Assembly: GCA_040905805.1 (NCBI GenBank) | Contig: JBBDQS010000012.1 | Location: 1-40,811, forward strand | DNA: 40,811 nt | Reading direction: 5' to 3' | Source: Egibacteraceae bacterium | Lineage (GTDB): Bacteria > Actinomycetota > Nitriliruptoria > Euzebyales > Egibacteraceae | Part shown: positions 1,987 through 27,829 of the stretch, piece by piece | Layout of the letters: each line of letters starts with the position of its first letter | Numbering within the stretch: the first letter of the stretch is position 1 | Translations under genes and position numbers: made by a program | The notes under the pieces: model-generated | The model's database searches: none | What the model was told of the DNA's origin: nothing | Seen by the model: only the letters and a program-made list of their open reading frames with translations

Positions 1987-3912
1987 ATGGGTGCAGACAG
2001 CGAGCCCTCGCCGGAGTCGGTCACGGCCGCTGCTCCGGGCGTCGCCGACGTGCGCATCGGCTTCGGCCAGCAGGACCCGCCAGCGGGCGGCTACACGCTG
2101 ACCGGCTTCGACGACCGTCTCGCGACCATGGCCGAGCAGCAGGAGACCCTCGTCGGTGCCGGCGACTACCGTGCGGTGTTCCACCTCACCTACCTGACGT
2201 TCTCCCGGCGGGTGCGGGCGGCGCTCGCCGCCGGGCGTTTCGCCGACGCGGACTGGGCCGCGGACATGTCCTGCCGGTTCGTCGACGCCTACCTGGAACA
2301 GGTCCGCCGGTGGGGTCGGGGCGACCCGACCCAGTGCCGCGCCTGGCGGGTCGCGTTCGGCTCCGCCCAGTCGGGTCGGGCGAACGTCGTGCAGGCGATG
2401 CTCCTCGGGATGAACGCCCACATCCACTACGACCTGGCCTTCGTGACGCTGGGGGCGTGTCGTGCCGCCGGCGACCTCAGCGATCCGAGCCCGCCACGGC
2501 CCTCGATCTCGAGGGCCCGCGTGCCCGACGCCCGCTACCGTGACTTCCTGCTCATCAACCAGGTCGGGTGGGAGAGCATCCCCCACATCCAGGAGACGGT
2601 GCTGCGCACCTTCGCCCGGACGCTGGCGTGGGGCACCAAGCCGGTCGCGCGCCTCACCAGGACCCTGGGCCAGCGCCTGCTGATGGAGGCCCGGGACACC
2701 TCCTGGGCCCACACCAGCCTGCTGGTGCACGCCCCGACCGAGACTGATCGCGCGGCCGTCGCCGCGATGATCGATGCCCACGCGGCCAGCCACACCCACC
2801 TGGTCGCCGCCCTGACGGCCAACCCACGGCGCGCCGTCGGCGGGTCGCGGGGCTGGCGCGACCGCCAGACCGACCTTCCGGAGTCAGCCCGCGACCAGCT
2901 GCTCGCGATGGCCACGACCAACCCGGTCGTCGCCGACCTCGCGCTCCGCCAGCTCGCCTTCGCCGGCGCGGACCCGGCCGTGGTCCTGGACGCCCTGGTC
3001 GATGCGGACCAGGAGGAGCTCGCGGGCAACTTCGCGGCCATGGTCGCCCGGCACGCACCGGCGCGCCGGCGCAAGGACCTCGAGCGGTACTGGCGCCGTG
3101 GGGGTCGCCAGGCCCACGCCGCCCTGACCGTCGCCCTTGCCGGCGGGTACGTCGCCGCCGGGGACCTGCCCCGCCGCGCGGTCGCCAGGGTGCACGACGC
3201 CTGGCAGGCCGCCCTCGATGACGCCCGGCGATGCGTGGCTGTCCCCGAGATCGCCGCCACCCCTGACCTGGCCGAGGCGTTGCGGGACTACGAGCAGCGC
3301 CAGAGCGACCTGCTGGCCCGAACGGGTCGCCCTCCTCGACCGCTGCACGCCGACACCGCACCGCTGCCGCTCGTCCACGCACAGACGCTGCTCGCCGTCC
3401 ATCCGGACCCGTGGGTGCGCGTATGCGCGGCGGGTCACGGGCTGACCGCGGACCACGAAGGAGGCCACGCCATGGCCCAGCTCATCGAGCAGGTGCTGTT
3501 CCTGAAGTCCACGGCCGTGTTCCTGGAGGTGGACCCCGCCTCGCTGCTGCCCGTGGCCGAGGAGCTGCAGGAGTGCACCTTCGGCGCCGGCACCGCCATC
3601 ATCCGCAGCGGCGACTGGGCCGACGGCATCCACCTGATCACGGAGGGCCGCGTCCGGGTCACCCAGGACCGCGACGGCAGGCGGGTGGACGTGGCCGACC
3701 TCGGCCGTGGCGACGCCCTCGGCGAGCTCTCGGCGCTGAACGACGCCCCGGCGACGGCCGACTGCACGGCCGTCACCCCGGTCCGCACCGTGTTCCTGGC
3801 GACCGGCGTCCTCGCGCAGCTGCTGCACCAGCACCCACGCGTCGCCATCGGCCTGGTGCGCGTGCTGAGCCAGCGGCTCACCACGACCACCCTGATGCTG
3901 GCGGACGGCTGA
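1987..3912 (+). CDS. DUF5995 domain - HEAT-like region - cyclic-nucleotide-binding-like domain fusion
   Basis: A 641-residue protein of unknown function. Residues about 35-280 resemble DUF5995 (pattern L-x-G-F-D-D-R at 38-44, then G-M-N-A-H-I-H-Y-D-L at 141-150, the most conserved stretch of that family). Residues about 295-485 are helical with HEAT-like pieces, including AVHPDPWVRVCAAG (470-483). Residues about 500-636 form a cNMP-binding beta-barrel with the V-F-L-E-V opening, an I-R-S-G-D turn (539-543) and GELSAL (579-584). In canonical CAP-type pockets an Arg follows the Pro a few residues later; here that position is Ala589, so cAMP binding is doubtful. There is no DNA-binding HTH and no membrane segment. 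The domain triad is read from sequence; a sensor or scaffold role is inference. Confidence 0.75.
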   Translation: MGADSEPSPESVTAAAPGVADVRIGFGQQDPPAGGYTLTGFDDRLATMAEQQETLVGAGDYRAVFHLTYLTFSRRVRAALAAGRFADADWAADMSCRFVDAYLEQVRRWGRGDPTQCRAWRVAFGSAQSGRANVVQAMLLGMNAHIHYDLAFVTLGACRAAGDLSDPSPPRPSISRARVPDARYRDFLLINQVGWESIPHIQETVLRTFARTLAWGTKPVARLTRTLGQRLLMEARDTSWAHTSLLVHAPTETDRAAVAAMIDAHAASHTHLVAALTANPRRAVGGSRGWRDRQTDLPESARDQLLAMATTNPVVADLALRQLAFAGADPAVVLDALVDADQEELAGNFAAMVARHAPARRRKDLERYWRRGGRQAHAALTVALAGGYVAAGDLPRRAVARVHDAWQAALDDARRCVAVPEIAATPDLAEALRDYEQRQSDLLARTGRPPRPLHADTAPLPLVHAQTLLAVHPDPWVRVCAAGHGLTADHEGGHAMAQLIEQVLFLKSTAVFLEVDPASLLPVAEELQECTFGAGTAIIRSGDWADGIHLITEGRVRVTQDRDGRRVDVADLGRGDALGELSALNDAPATADCTAVTPVRTVFLATGVLAQLLHQHPRVAIGLVRVLSQRLTTTTLMLADG

Positions 3913-23283: not shown

Positions 23284-23946
23284 CTAGATCCAACCCCGCT
23301 CGGCGGCGATGCGGGCCGCATCGAACCGGTTCCTGGCGCCGACCTTGGCCATGGCCGTGGACAGGTAGTTGCGAACCGTGCCCGCCGCGAGGGAGACCTG
23401 CTCGGCGATGGCCGCCACCGGCCCCCCCTGCATGGTGAGCCGGAGCACCTGCGCCTCCCTGGGGGTCAAAGGGGACTGCGGCACGGTCAGGGCGCGGGCG
23501 GCGACCTCCGGGTCGATGTAGCGGTTGCCCATCTGCACGTCACGCAGGATGCTGACGAGGCGCTCGGCCGGCGTGGTCTTGGGGACGAACCCCTGCACCC
23601 CCGCCTGCAGGGCGCGGCGCAGCACCGCGGGGCGTGCCTGACGGGTCACGATGACGATCGGCACGTCCATGCGCGCGCGGATGTCCGCAGCGGCCTCGAT
23701 GCCGTCCCTGCCCGGCATGAGCACATCGAGCACCACGATGTCGGGCCGGTGCTCCAGGGCCTGTGCCACGGCGCAATCGCCGTTGCCGACCGCGGCCACG
23801 ACCTCGACGTCCGCCTCCTGCTCGAGCAGGGCGACGAACGCCCCCCGAAACAGGTCCTCCTCGTCCGCCAGCACGATTCTCACGGCGGGGGAAGGTGGCG
23901 TCGCCCGCGTGCGCTCCAACAGAACATGGTCATCGTTGTCTCCCAT
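23284..23946 (-). CDS. NarL/LuxR-family response regulator (orphan)
   Basis: A 220-residue two-domain regulator. The receiver domain (about 22-140) has the acidic pair in VLADEEDLF, the phospho-acceptor D74 in IVVLDVLMPGRDG, the Thr in IVTRQA and Lys in FVPKTT. The C-terminal LuxR-type HTH (about 153-213) has LTPREAQVLRLTMQGGPVAAIA and AAGTVRNYLSTAMAKVGARNR. It should bind DNA after phosphorylation. No histidine kinase is adjacent on either side. ATG 23946 adds about 20 residues before the receiver; GTG 23883 is an alternative nearer the domain edge. It faces the lipoprotein gene across 129 bp containing a -10-like box and a palindrome, consistent with control of itself and that neighbour. 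Confidence 0.9.
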   Translation of the reverse strand: MGDNDDHVLLERTRATPPSPAVRIVLADEEDLFRGAFVALLEQEADVEVVAAVGNGDCAVAQALEHRPDIVVLDVLMPGRDGIEAAADIRARMDVPIVIVTRQARPAVLRRALQAGVQGFVPKTTPAERLVSILRDVQMGNRYIDPEVAARALTVPQSPLTPREAQVLRLTMQGGPVAAIAEQVSLAAGTVRNYLSTAMAKVGARNRFDAARIAAERGWI

Positions 23947-23953
23947 GAGAACT

Positions 23954-23963
23954 ACACCGGTGT
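23954..23963. promoter_or_regulatory. Perfect 10-bp palindrome just inside the response-regulator promoter
   Basis: The symmetric ACACCGGTGT lies between the TATACT box (23966-23971) and the start codon, where a bound regulator would block transcription. A half-site symmetry of this size suits a NarL-type dimer. This is inference from position. Confidence 0.35.
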
Positions 23964-23965
23964 GC

Positions 23966-23971
23966 AGTATA
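23966..23971 (-). promoter_or_regulatory. Candidate -10 element (TATACT) for the response regulator
   Basis: TATACT on the minus strand, one base from the TATAAT consensus and rare in such GC-rich sequence, 19 bases ahead of the ATG at 23946. A TTCGCG is at roughly -35 spacing but is weak. Confidence 0.5.
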
Positions 23972-24075
23972 CGGGGGGGCCTGCGCGCGCGAACCCGTAC
24001 GCTGTGGTGGTGACCTCGATCGAGGGTCGGCGCCGTCCGTGGCGCCGCCGAGCCGTCCTGGGAGGGCCGCTGCGC

Positions 24076-24582
24076 ATGAGGGTCCGACGCGTGTCGGTGG
24101 TGGTGCTCGTGCTCGTCGCTGTGGCGTGCTCCTCGGACGATACCGGATGGACGAGCCGCGCCGTCGGTGACGTGGTGTTCGACCACCCGCGCGCCTGGGT
24201 CGTCTACGAAGACGAGGACACCCGCATCGAGGACGCCCTGGTCGAGGTCGTCGACCAGGACAACAACGGCGTCGCCGTCTACCGCTACCGCAACACCGCA
24301 GACGGGTTGACGACGCTCACGGACGCCTTCGAGCAGGAGCTGGAGGCCGTCGACGGGCAGATGGTCACCGCGGGCCCCGCGGACGTCCACGGCGCCCCGG
24401 AGGCCGTGCTGCTGCAAGCCGAGCTCGAGTACGACGAGGGTGACCGGTCGCGCCCCTACCGGCTGTCGCGGCTGCTCATCGAGCGGGACGACGTCATCGT
24501 CGAGATCCGCAGCCGCGAGCCGGTGGCCGGCGGGGACCCAACGCTCCAACGGGTGCTCGACTCCGTTCGGGTCGCCGACTGA
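24076..24582 (+). CDS. Small lipoprotein, PsbP/LpqN-like
   Basis: A 168-residue secreted lipoprotein. Basic MRVRR is followed by a hydrophobic segment and the lipobox V-A-V-A-C at about residue 18. The mature part has alternating strands and a middle segment VAVYRYRNTADGLTTLTDAFEQEL that is reminiscent of PsbP/DUF1795 or LpqN/LpqT lipoproteins, but I cannot assign it firmly. GGAGGG at 24060-24065 supports the ATG. Its last 127 bases lie antisense to the end of the HelD-like gene. Function unknown. Confidence 0.7.
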   Translation: MRVRRVSVVVLVLVAVACSSDDTGWTSRAVGDVVFDHPRAWVVYEDEDTRIEDALVEVVDQDNNGVAVYRYRNTADGLTTLTDAFEQELEAVDGQMVTAGPADVHGAPEAVLLQAELEYDEGDRSRPYRLSRLLIERDDVIVEIRSREPVAGGDPTLQRVLDSVRVAD

Positions 24583-26318
24583 CCGCAGCCCGCCGGGAGC
24601 CCCCTCGTATGCAGGACGGTCAGGCGCTGGGTCGGCCGGGTGCAGGCGACGTAGAGGCCGCGCAGGCCCCGCTCCTCGACGATCGCCGCCGGCTCGACCA
24701 CGACGACACTGTCGAACTCCAGGCCGCGGACGTCCTCGACGGTGTGGACGACGGCGTGCCCGCCGGCCCACTGGCGCACCGCCGCCGCCATGGCGCTCGG
24801 GGCCACGACCGCCACCGTGCCGCCAGCCTCCACGAGACCGGCCACCGTCGCCGCCAGCGTCCCCGGCAGCACCGACCGCTCGACCCGCTCGACCTCCGGG
24901 TGCGCCCCGGTCCGGCGCACCGACCGGGGGGGTCCCAACGCCGGGGTGGTGACGGCCAGCATGGTCCCCGCCCACTCCATGATCTCGGCCGGCGTGCGGT
25001 AGTTGACCGTCAGCGCGCGGATGGTCGAGCGGCCGCGGGCACCCACGAGCAACCGGGCGACGTCCTCCCAGCTGCCTGGCGTCCACACCCCGCCGGCCTG
25101 CCCGAGGTCGCCCACGATCGTCATGGACCGCGACGGGCACCGGCGGGTGAGCATCCGCCACTGCATGGGGGTCAGCTCCTGCGCCTCGTCGACCAGCACG
25201 TGGGCGAAGGTGCTGGCCTCCTCGTCGGTGGTCAGGCAGGCAGCGAGCTCGTCGAGCAGCGCGAGGTCGTCCGCGCTCCACGCCGCGTCGGTCGGACGGA
25301 CCAGCAGCGCCTGCTCCGCGTCGGTCAGGATGCCGGCGGCGGCGTGCCGCAGGCGGCGTGGCGAGGCGAACAGCTGCCGCACCACGGCCCGGGCCAGGAG
25401 CGGCGGCGCCTCCCCGCCCCGTGCCCGCCCCCGAACATGTCGGGCCACGCGCGCGAGCACCGCCGCCATGCGCCCGTCCGCCTTGACCACCGCCGCCTCG
25501 TGGGCGTCGGCGGCACCGACCGGCGGAAGGCCCGGCAGGTCCGCCAGGCGGCCGAGGCGCACGCTGTCCTCGCCGAGGGAGGGCAGCACCTCCCCGATGG
25601 CCCGCAGGAAGCCCGGGGTCGGGCCGACCAGCAGGACCCGGCCGTGGTCAAGGCGCCCGCGGTGCGTGTAGAGCAGGTAGGCGGCGCGGTGCAGGGCGAC
25701 GGCGGTCTTGCCGGTGCCCGGCCCGCCCTGCACCACCAGGACGCCCTCCAGCGGCGCCCGCACGACCTCGTCCTGCTCGCGCTGGATCGTCGCGACGATG
25801 TCGCGCATCGTGCCCGTGCGCCGGCGGTCGAGCGCGGTGAGCAGCGCCGCCTCGCCAACAAGCGCCAGCTCGCCGCCGGCCGACTCGGCCAGCAGCTCGT
25901 CGTCGAGGTCCACCACCTGCCGGCCGCGGCAGCGGATGTGCCGGCGGCGCGTGACCCCGAGCGGCTCGGCGCCGGTCGCGCGGTAGAACGACGCCGCAGC
26001 CGGGGCGCGCCAGTCGAGCACCAGCGGTTCGAACGCGGCGTCGGCGACCGCGACCCGCCCGATGTGCACGTGCCCCCCGTCGTGCAGGTCCAGGCGGCCG
26101 AACACCAGCGGTTCCTGACCGACCTCCAGCGCGGCGAGCCGCCGGGCGCTGGTCTCGACGAACACGTCACGGTCGAAACGGGCCTGGTGCGTGCCGCCCG
26201 CGCCGAGACGCACGACCCCCGCCGCGAGCGTGCGGGCCCGATCGCGGAGCGCGGCCAGCCGCGCGTACGCACGGTCGACATGGCCCTGCTCCGCGGTGAT
26301 CTCCGGGTGACTGGTCAC
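24456..26318 (-). CDS. helD: HelD-like superfamily 1 helicase (short form)
   Basis: A 620-residue UvrD/Rep-type ATPase when started at GTG 26318. The N-terminus is a HelD coiled-coil (EITAEQGHVDRAYARLAALRDRA pattern), then VLDWRAPAAASFYRAT and MRDIVATIQREQDEVVR, both HelD signatures. Walker A is GGPGTGKTA (198-206), Walker B LVDEAQELTPMQW, with VNYRTPAEIM and LYVACTRPTQRL near the end. HelD strips RNA polymerase from DNA and can confer rifampicin tolerance; it is normally about 720-780 residues, so this one is short. The recognisable family end falls near base 24590, yet the frame stays open to 24456, inside the convergent lipoprotein gene, adding about 45 unrelated residues. Upstream in-frame starts occur every 15 bp to ATG 26393. 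Confidence 0.85.
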   Translation of the reverse strand: MTSHPEITAEQGHVDRAYARLAALRDRARTLAAGVVRLGAGGTHQARFDRDVFVETSARRLAALEVGQEPLVFGRLDLHDGGHVHIGRVAVADAAFEPLVLDWRAPAAASFYRATGAEPLGVTRRRHIRCRGRQVVDLDDELLAESAGGELALVGEAALLTALDRRRTGTMRDIVATIQREQDEVVRAPLEGVLVVQGGPGTGKTAVALHRAAYLLYTHRGRLDHGRVLLVGPTPGFLRAIGEVLPSLGEDSVRLGRLADLPGLPPVGAADAHEAAVVKADGRMAAVLARVARHVRGRARGGEAPPLLARAVVRQLFASPRRLRHAAAGILTDAEQALLVRPTDAAWSADDLALLDELAACLTTDEEASTFAHVLVDEAQELTPMQWRMLTRRCPSRSMTIVGDLGQAGGVWTPGSWEDVARLLVGARGRSTIRALTVNYRTPAEIMEWAGTMLAVTTPALGPPRSVRRTGAHPEVERVERSVLPGTLAATVAGLVEAGGTVAVVAPSAMAAAVRQWAGGHAVVHTVEDVRGLEFDSVVVVEPAAIVEERGLRGLYVACTRPTQRLTVLHTRGLPAGCGQSATRTESSTRWSVGSPPATGSRLRISTMTSSRSMSSRDSR

Positions 26319-26393
26319 CTGCTCCCCCCTCACCTGCTCCCCCCTCACCGGCTCCCCCCTCACCGGCTCCCCCCGCACCTGCTCCCCCCTCAT
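26319..26393 (-). repeat. Five 15-bp tandem repeats, each with a ribosome-binding site and an in-frame GTG/ATG
   Basis: On the minus strand the unit is a start codon (ATG in the first, GTG in the others), then AGG or CGG, GGG, GAG and CAG or CCG. In each unit GGGGGGAG or similar stands 3 bases before the next GTG, in frame with helD. In-frame starts therefore lie at 26393, 26378, 26363, 26348, 26333 and 26318. Read as protein it is a repeated V-R-G-E-Q/P. Copies differ at one or two positions. Confidence 0.9.
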
Positions 26394-26421
26394 CCCTCGT
26401 CGGCCAACCGTCGCACCCTGC

Positions 26422-26461
26422 CCCACACCCGGCCCTTGCGGCAAGGGGTCCCCCGTGTGGG
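26422..26461. terminator. Nested hairpin between the acyl-CoA dehydrogenase gene and helD
   Basis: Outer arms of 7 bases (CCCACAC at 26422-26428, GTGTGGG at 26455-26461) enclose a perfect inner hairpin at 26433-26447 (6-bp stem CCCTTG, loop CGG). It lies just past the stop of the minus-strand dehydrogenase and ahead of helD, so it probably ends the former transcript. No long T-run is present. Confidence 0.5.
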
Positions 26462-26475
26462 AGAATGGACGTGGC

Positions 26476-27633
26476 CTACAGGGGCAGCCCGAGCGAGCGG
26501 GCGACCAGCAAGCGCTGGACCTCGCTGGTGCCCTCGCCGATCTCGAGGATCTTCGCGTCCTGGTAGAAGCGGCCCACGGGGTAGTCGGTGGTGAACCCGT
26601 ACCCGCCGAAGACCTGGCAGGCCCCGCGGGCGGCGTCGACCGCCGCCTCGGTCGCGAACAGCTTGGCGACCGACGCCGCCCGCGCGAACGCCTGGCCGGA
26701 GGCCGCCAGCCAGCAGGCGTAGCGGTACTGGTTGCGGGCGAGCTGGGCGGCGACCTCCATGTCGGCGATCGCGAACGCGACGCCCTGGTTGGCGCCGATC
26801 GGGCGCCCGAAGGCCTCGCGCTGGGTGGCGTAGGCGACGCACTCGTCGATGCAGCCCTGGATCAGCCCGACCGCCAGGGCGGCGATGGCGATGCGGCCCT
26901 CGTCCAGGATAGCGAGGAAGTTGGCCAGACCCCGGCCCTCGTCGCCGAGCTGGTGATCCGCGGGCACCCGGCACCCCTCGAAGGCCAGGTCGCGGGTGTC
27001 GCTGGCGTGCCAGCCGACCTTGCGGTAGCCCGCGCCGACCGTGTAGCCCGGCGTGCCGGTCGGCACCACGAAGTTGGTGACCTGCCGGCGGCCGTCGACC
27101 TCGCCGGTCCCGGCGGTGACCGTCACGAGCGCCGAGATGTCGGTGCCGGCGTTGGTGATGAACTGCTTGGCGCCGTCGATCACCCACCCGTCCCCGTCGC
27201 GCACCGCGGTGGTCCGCAGGGCCGCGGCATCCGTGCCCCCGCCCGCCTCGGTGAGCCCGAACGCGGCGAGATGCTCCCCGCGCGCCAGCGGCGGTAGCCA
27301 GCGCTCCCGCTGCGCCGCGGAGCCGAACCGGAAGATCGGCATCGCCCCGAGCCCGACCGCGGCCTCCAGGGTCACCCCGAGGGACTGGTCGACCCGGCCG
27401 ATCTCCTCGATGGCCAGGCACAGCGACAGCAGGTCCCCGCCCATCCCGCCGTACTCCTCGGGGAAGGGCAGCCCGAACAGGCCCATGGCGCCCATCTCCG
27501 CGACGAGGTCGAGCGGGAACGCACGGTCGGCGTTCATCGCCTCGGCGCGCGGGGCCACCCGCTCGACCGCGAACGCGCGCACCACCTGGCGCAGCTCCTC
27601 CTGCTCGGGCGTGAGCGCGAACGACAGCGCCAT
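26476..27633 (-). CDS. Acyl-CoA dehydrogenase, short/branched-chain type
   Basis: A 385-residue FAD enzyme introducing a 2,3-double bond in acyl-CoA. It opens with LTPEQEELRQVVRAFAVERV and has the FAD segments AFGLTEAGGGTDAAALRT and the K-Q-F-I-T-N-A strand. The catalytic base appears to be E367 in EIGEGTSEVQRLLVAR. In isovaleryl-CoA dehydrogenase this position is not Glu and the base sits in helix G; here helix G reads LDEGRIAIAALAVG, closer to short/branched-chain (2-methylbutyryl) and butyryl enzymes. So although it is next to methylcrotonyl-CoA genes, isovaleryl specificity is uncertain. ATG 27633 has AAGGGA upstream. It is separated from the rest of the cluster by 457 bp and has its own candidate promoter. 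Confidence 0.88.
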   Translation of the reverse strand: MALSFALTPEQEELRQVVRAFAVERVAPRAEAMNADRAFPLDLVAEMGAMGLFGLPFPEEYGGMGGDLLSLCLAIEEIGRVDQSLGVTLEAAVGLGAMPIFRFGSAAQRERWLPPLARGEHLAAFGLTEAGGGTDAAALRTTAVRDGDGWVIDGAKQFITNAGTDISALVTVTAGTGEVDGRRQVTNFVVPTGTPGYTVGAGYRKVGWHASDTRDLAFEGCRVPADHQLGDEGRGLANFLAILDEGRIAIAALAVGLIQGCIDECVAYATQREAFGRPIGANQGVAFAIADMEVAAQLARNQYRYACWLAASGQAFARAASVAKLFATEAAVDAARGACQVFGGYGFTTDYPVGRFYQDAKILEIGEGTSEVQRLLVARSLGLPL

Positions 27634-27667
27634 CGATGATCCCTTCGAGGGGCGGCAGGCCCTCGGC

Positions 27668-27673
27668 AGTCTA
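27668..27673 (-). promoter_or_regulatory. Candidate -10 element (TAGACT) for the acyl-CoA dehydrogenase
   Basis: TAGACT on the minus strand 34 bases ahead of ATG 27633, leaving room for the AAGGGA ribosome-binding site. No clear -35. Confidence 0.4.
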
Positions 27674-27785
27674 CGAGCCGGCGCTCGCTGATCCCGGCTG
27701 CCCTCCCGCCCCGGTACGCCAAGGCGGTCCGCGCGACGACGACGGGCGTGCTGTCCCCCCGGACCTGCGGGCCATGGGGCGTATT

Positions 27786-27803
27786 GGGTAGCCGGGGCTA
27801 CCC
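27786..27803. promoter_or_regulatory. 18-bp perfect palindrome upstream of the acyl-CoA dehydrogenase
   Basis: GGGTAGCC, two G, GGCTACCC: every position pairs. It is about 115 bases upstream of the -10 candidate, so it could be an upstream operator, or an RNA hairpin ending transcription from the liu genes upstream. Not decidable from sequence. Confidence 0.4.
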
Positions 27804-27829
27804 GCACGCCTGCTCACAACCCGGACCTC

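Follow-up and report, generated by a model that had tools for sequence, protein, structure and literature searches.

A 15-bp minisatellite of in-frame start modules ahead of helD in an Egibacteraceae genome, probably a neutral expansion

The helD-like gene in the window examined here, a stretch of 40,811 nucleotides from an Egibacteraceae bacterium, is preceded by a short minisatellite in which each unit carries a start codon and a Shine-Dalgarno (SD) sequence in the reading frame of the gene. Comparison with homologues points to the last start codon as the original one, and the array is best read, with reasonable probability, as a neutral expansion that has left redundant in-frame start sites upstream of it.

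The array, its start codons and the ancestral start

The array is located on the minus strand at positions 26319 to 26393 and consists of five 15-bp units, which read from 26393 to 26319 as ATGAGGGGGGAGCAG, GTGCGGGGGGAGCCG, GTGAGGGGGGAGCCG, GTGAGGGGGGAGCAG and GTGAGGGGGGAGCAG; GTG ACC AGT (GTGACCAGTCACCCG) follows the fifth. Each unit is made up of a start codon, the SD sequence GGGGGGAG and C(A/C)G. The units differ in the start codon (A or G), in an A or C ahead of the G-run and in CAG or CCG, and while two of the five are identical, three can be told apart by substitutions. GGGGGGAG is unchanged ahead of all five GTGs, and on its flanks only the preceding base (A/C) and one following base (A/C) vary. 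Tandem Repeats Finder describes the array as 5.2 copies with a 93% match and a score of 135, compared with 60 for the second-ranked array in the window and with a top score of 115 (median 58) in 200 dinucleotide shuffles. The near-identical units, arranged head to tail, thus form a minisatellite that is not due to chance at the sequence level. The initial annotation had described tandem 15-bp modules, each with a ribosome-binding site (RBS) and an in-frame start, ahead of helD, and this description is correct, with five units and six starts.

The six starts are the ATG at 26391 to 26393 and the GTGs at 26376 to 26378, 26361 to 26363, 26346 to 26348, 26331 to 26333 and 26316 to 26318. Their first bases (26393, 26378, 26363, 26348, 26333 and 26318) are exactly 15 bp apart and share frame 0, which has no stop from the ATG onwards and continues into a HelD-family protein. 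Either AGGGGGGAG or CGGGGGGAG stands before each GTG and ends 3 nt upstream of it, and in the AGGGGG register the spacer to the GTG is 6 nt. The calculated anti-SD pairing is −12.3 kcal/mol for four of the five GTGs, including the last, and −10.4 kcal/mol for the one at 26361 to 26363, with normal spacing throughout, which bears out the earlier claim that the modules are complete initiation units. At the upstream ATG, the sole SD-like sequence, GAGGG, touches the start codon directly, an unfavourable spacing, and this ATG is probably a weak initiation site. For start-site annotation this matters, as the upstream ATG is likely to be misannotated as the start of helD.

The initial annotation did not name the ancestral start. 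HelD homologues were collected by protein search and 107 with an aligned N-terminus were compared. In 42 of the 107 an in-frame stop leaves no ATG, GTG or TTG at a distance of 5 codons or more ahead of the site that corresponds to the last GTG; in 36 of these 42 the start lies no more than 3 codons from that site, and in 16 exactly there. Examples are GTG CCA ACG CAT CCT (L027), GTG GGC GCA CAC CCC (L037) and GTG GGC AAG (L093). The conserved protein, with the motif E..EQ..VDRAY, starts immediately downstream of the last GTG. These alignments indicate that the last GTG (26318) is the ancestral start of helD. An SD/start array at the start was found in none of the approximately 107 homologues, and a tail resembling RGE[Q/P]V in none of those compared. 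Since the last GTG appears to be ancestral and the homologues have no array, the upstream units are best regarded as copies of helD's own RBS and start codon. A helD homologue from the same order (L088, genome G028) has a leader with a 42-bp, 2.2-copy repeat, in which in-frame GTGs are 14 codons apart and the SDs are not clear.

Origin of the array and competing readings

The sequence of events that we favour is as follows. A 15-bp segment with the RBS and start codon of helD would have been duplicated in tandem to become a minisatellite, with the upstream copies added by slippage or unequal exchange and the GTG at 26318 being the original. As the unit consists of whole codons and contains no stop, each copy would be a usable in-frame start, and the equal quality of their SDs makes it likely that several of the GTGs are used. 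HelD would then exist in several forms, distinguished by the length of an (RGE[Q/P]V)n tail that grows by 5 residues at a time, the ancestral start presumably being among those used. Read-through of all units would add a 25-residue tail, predicted to be disordered. The tail precedes the coiled-coil arm and should be tolerated, so that the expansion may be neutral or nearly so. The presence of SD and start in every unit requires no separate explanation, since it follows automatically from the segment that was duplicated.

Neutral expansion is the best reading because minisatellites are unusually abundant in the genome, 15 bp being the period seen most frequently. In a 519-kb sample of the genome, counted at a minimum of 2.8 copies, a score of at least 80 and a period of up to 60, there are 33 arrays (about 64 per Mb), 10 of which have a period of 15. 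Arrays with at least 3 copies and a score of at least 100 reach 57 per Mb in this genome, compared with 19 per Mb in 753 kb of loci taken from other genomes, most of them actinobacterial. A random 15-mer of the genome, when repeated, provides an SD and an ATG or GTG in 4–6% of cases per strand. If the approximately 230 arrays of a genome were placed randomly, some 17 start codons would be overlapped, a rough estimate that ignores selection. Given this abundance, a minisatellite on some start codon is expected in this genome. The abundance is seen in stretches L136 to L151 and L170 to L189 of the genome, and a 61-bp repeat, related between sites (GTGTGGCCCGGC...), occurs in L136, L139, L143, L147 and L150.

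The initial annotation had proposed a search for similar start-module repeats elsewhere in the genome. The 23-bp two-unit pattern has no second occurrence in the 3.6-Mb draft genome of 166 contigs and is unique to the helD locus. A corrected module pattern, searched in 396 Actinomycetota genomes with the reversed pattern as control, occurs at 44 places, about the same as the control, and none of the 16 loci inspected from these 44 is a start array, most being inside or antisense to long open frames. The best-looking candidate, with GTGAGCCGGGAGGCC repeats on the minus strand of L132 (G087, around position 3000), was rejected despite its resemblance to an SD-start array: it starts where an upstream HTH-type gene ends with its GTGA stop and is clear of the next start, the downstream gene beginning about 400 nt later.

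It was also claimed that slippage would change the number of starts and never the frame, and this holds, as the 15-bp step is in frame and alters the N-terminal length by 5 residues at a time. The suggestion built on it, that the array could tune HelD, fares less well. As a selected device, the number of SD-start modules would set the amount of HelD, by offering ribosomes more places to land, or its N-terminal forms, and slippage would provide heritable, frame-safe variation. The completeness and strength of each unit and the preservation of the frame are in its favour, and tandem repeats just upstream of genes are phase-variable in copy number in Mycobacterium tuberculosis (PMC12817950). In addition, none of the three or four unit changes touches GGGGGGAG or the TG of the start codon, which has a chance of about 1–4% by our own count; this counts against neutrality and may be a weak hint of constraint. 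However, the array is shared by none of the homologues, arrays of period 15 are common at other sites of the genome, where one on a start codon is expected by chance, and helD is not conserved in the family, which makes a long-standing device unlikely. Selected tuning is accordingly considered improbable, though it is the least improbable of the alternatives. In another reading, the five G6 tracts, either as mRNA or as a DNA strand, would fold into a G-quadruplex that hides the RBSs and represses helD; at least four units are required, so copy number would switch the folding. The array alone is predicted to fold at −55.9 kcal/mol with quadruplexes allowed and at −12.6 kcal/mol with them disallowed, but these values are pure prediction from a simple energy model with 9-nt loops, five G-runs arise automatically when a G-rich SD is repeated, and again no homologue has the array. 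Such a switch seems quite unlikely. A contingency device that always preserves the frame, with slippage altering how many complete in-frame initiation modules there are and hence protein amount and N-terminal forms, possibly gated by a quadruplex of this kind, is doubtful to a degree between these two.

The array might also be a repeat at the protein level, with translation normally starting from its upstream end and a functional RGE[Q/P]V tail. An open frame from the ATG onwards and a period divisible by three are in its favour, but a 3n period is expected a priori in one case out of three and is frequent in the arrays of the genome, the ATG has no well-placed SD, and the tail is predicted to be disordered and has no similar counterpart in any homologue; this makes a functional tail very unlikely. 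Least likely of all is a wrong copy number in the assembly. The genome is a draft and two units are identical, whereas the whole array of 75–78 bp is below the typical length of a short read and three units are told apart by their substitutions. Neutral expansion of helD's own start module thus remains the preferred reading.

Relation to known repeats at gene starts

The initial annotation knew of no earlier description of such an arrangement, and no description of tandem in-frame SD-start modules was found in the open-access literature. Expression changes caused by repeats at gene starts are already known (PMC12817950, PMC4679880, PMC12548453). VNTR3690 of M. tuberculosis is a promoter tandem repeat 12 bp upstream of lpdA (PMC12817950). 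The promoter repeats and VNTRs of M. tuberculosis resemble the helD array in that a minisatellite stands directly before a gene in a high-GC actinobacterium and copy number could alter expression while leaving the protein core untouched. They act on promoters, however, and their variation has been measured, whereas at helD the repeated unit lies within the reading frame, consists of a translation-initiation module and is known from one genome. MIRUs are located at the start codons of downstream genes, as the helD repeats are, and feed ribosomes to them (PMC12548453). In contrast to the helD array, with its 15-bp units, one continuous frame and no signs of mobility, MIRUs are mobile and carry a small ORF, which is coupled to the gene by a −4 stop/start overlap; the helD unit contains no stop codon and its two-unit pattern is confined to a single locus, neither of which fits a MIRU. 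Short repeats close to start codons, for which effects on expression are either suspected or demonstrated, are also found in surface-protein genes of Moraxella catarrhalis, where a G tract (uspA1) and AGAT repeats stand between promoter and start, and as TAACTGA repeats in Beggiatoaceae (PMC4679880). Their units, unlike those of helD, have no start codon and little SD character, and repeat number changes spacing or binding rather than the number of starts.

The helD array is mainly a clear case of a minisatellite born on a start codon. Were HelD levels in fact governed by its copy number, the array would be a simple equivalent of promoter repeats at the level of translation, one whose variants never leave the frame, and it would offer an easy natural test of ribosome sharing among several identical RBSs in a row.

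The HelD protein, its leader and its locus

From the ancestral start, the helD-like gene (24456 to 26318, minus strand) has 620 codons and a stop. Its product has the N-terminal coiled coil, the DWR(A/S)P motif (as DWRAP) and the split 1A/2A ATPase of class II HelD, with Walker A GGPGTGKT and DEAQE, and matches the M. smegmatis HelD structures 6yxu/6yys with E=3e-100. In the predicted structure (mean pLDDT 77.8) the N-terminal helices are predicted, residues 1–27 of the tail have pLDDT below 50, in keeping with disorder, and the first helix and the coiled coil start at residue 30. Although the ATPase and N-terminal motifs are retained, the counterparts of two M. smegmatis elements are absent, as judged by alignment with published domain borders (PMC7749160). 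Most of the clamp-opening tip is gone, with a gap of about 105 residues at 25407 to 25454 relative to the clamp-opening domain (M. smegmatis 291–395), and so is the primary-channel loop (M. smegmatis 448–503), at 25212 to 25235; in the alignment, the M. smegmatis residues that have no counterpart at the loop are about 454–508. This loop has been proposed to evict rifampicin (PMC8655204). The NCBIfam HelR scores of 344 and 435 bits are far below the cut-offs of 750 and 1100, so that the protein is not assigned to HelR. The initial annotation tied the helicase to antibiotic tolerance; for the HelD of the window this link appears weak, because its clamp-opening tip is largely missing, its primary-channel loop is absent and there is no proper rifamycin-associated element (RAE).

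The leader contains a perfect 15-bp palindrome, CCCTTGC-C-GCAAGGG (CCCTTGCCGCAAGGG, minus strand, 26433 to 26447), in the gap that separates the array from the upstream gene, 40 nt before the array. With the consensus that we take to be that of the RAE, checked against loci, the element was recovered in the form GGGGCTTGCNGCAAGCCCC upstream of genes of the flavin-monooxygenase (Rox-like) and phosphotransferase-like kinds; all three genes above the HelR cut-off have the variant GGGGCTTGCNGCAAGGCCC ahead of them. The palindrome and the RAE have the 11-bp core CTTGCNGCAAG in common and nothing further. This core is rare, with no occurrence in 2,791 windows of 170 nt of the same genome. The outer arms of the 19-bp RAE and the CATAAT and TATA boxes of its promoter are absent from the helD leader, which rules the palindrome out as an RAE; it would be a degenerate relic of one at most and may be a coincidence. 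Among loci L154 to L157 and L196 to L198, the HelR version of the RAE ends in GCAAGGCCC and not GCAAGCCCC, and TATA and CATAAT-like boxes are conserved on either side of the element in most.

A box resembling TATGATCGATGGTTC or TAGAATCGATCGGTTC occurs 25–50 nt before the start in many helD genes of Acidimicrobiia (L021, L027, L028, L036, L037, L043, L048, L051, L057) and is absent ahead of the helD of the window. An Rfam search gave no match, and scans for a sigma-70 promoter and a terminator found none. The folding z-score of the leader, −0.27, implies that its structure is not unusual when quadruplexes are left aside, and whole-leader and local folds give conflicting orders of start accessibility.

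An acyl-CoA dehydrogenase gene (26476 to 27807, minus strand) lies upstream of helD and 82 bp before the array. No helD was found in the sister species, that is, the other species of the genus; two other members of the family gave weak partial helicase matches only and the remaining members none. The genes on either side are collinear in the sister species, where three unrelated genes take the place of helD and the adjoining response regulator. The absence of helD there, at a variable spot between conserved neighbours (an LmeA-like gene on one side and an acyl-CoA dehydrogenase/HMGL-like pair on the other), suggests that helD was recently gained or lost. When window positions 23284 to 26475 are set against the sister-species locus L190, helD and a LuxR-type response regulator stand opposite the three unrelated genes, which by eye are FAD/amine oxidase-like, glycosidase-like and glycosyltransferase-like.
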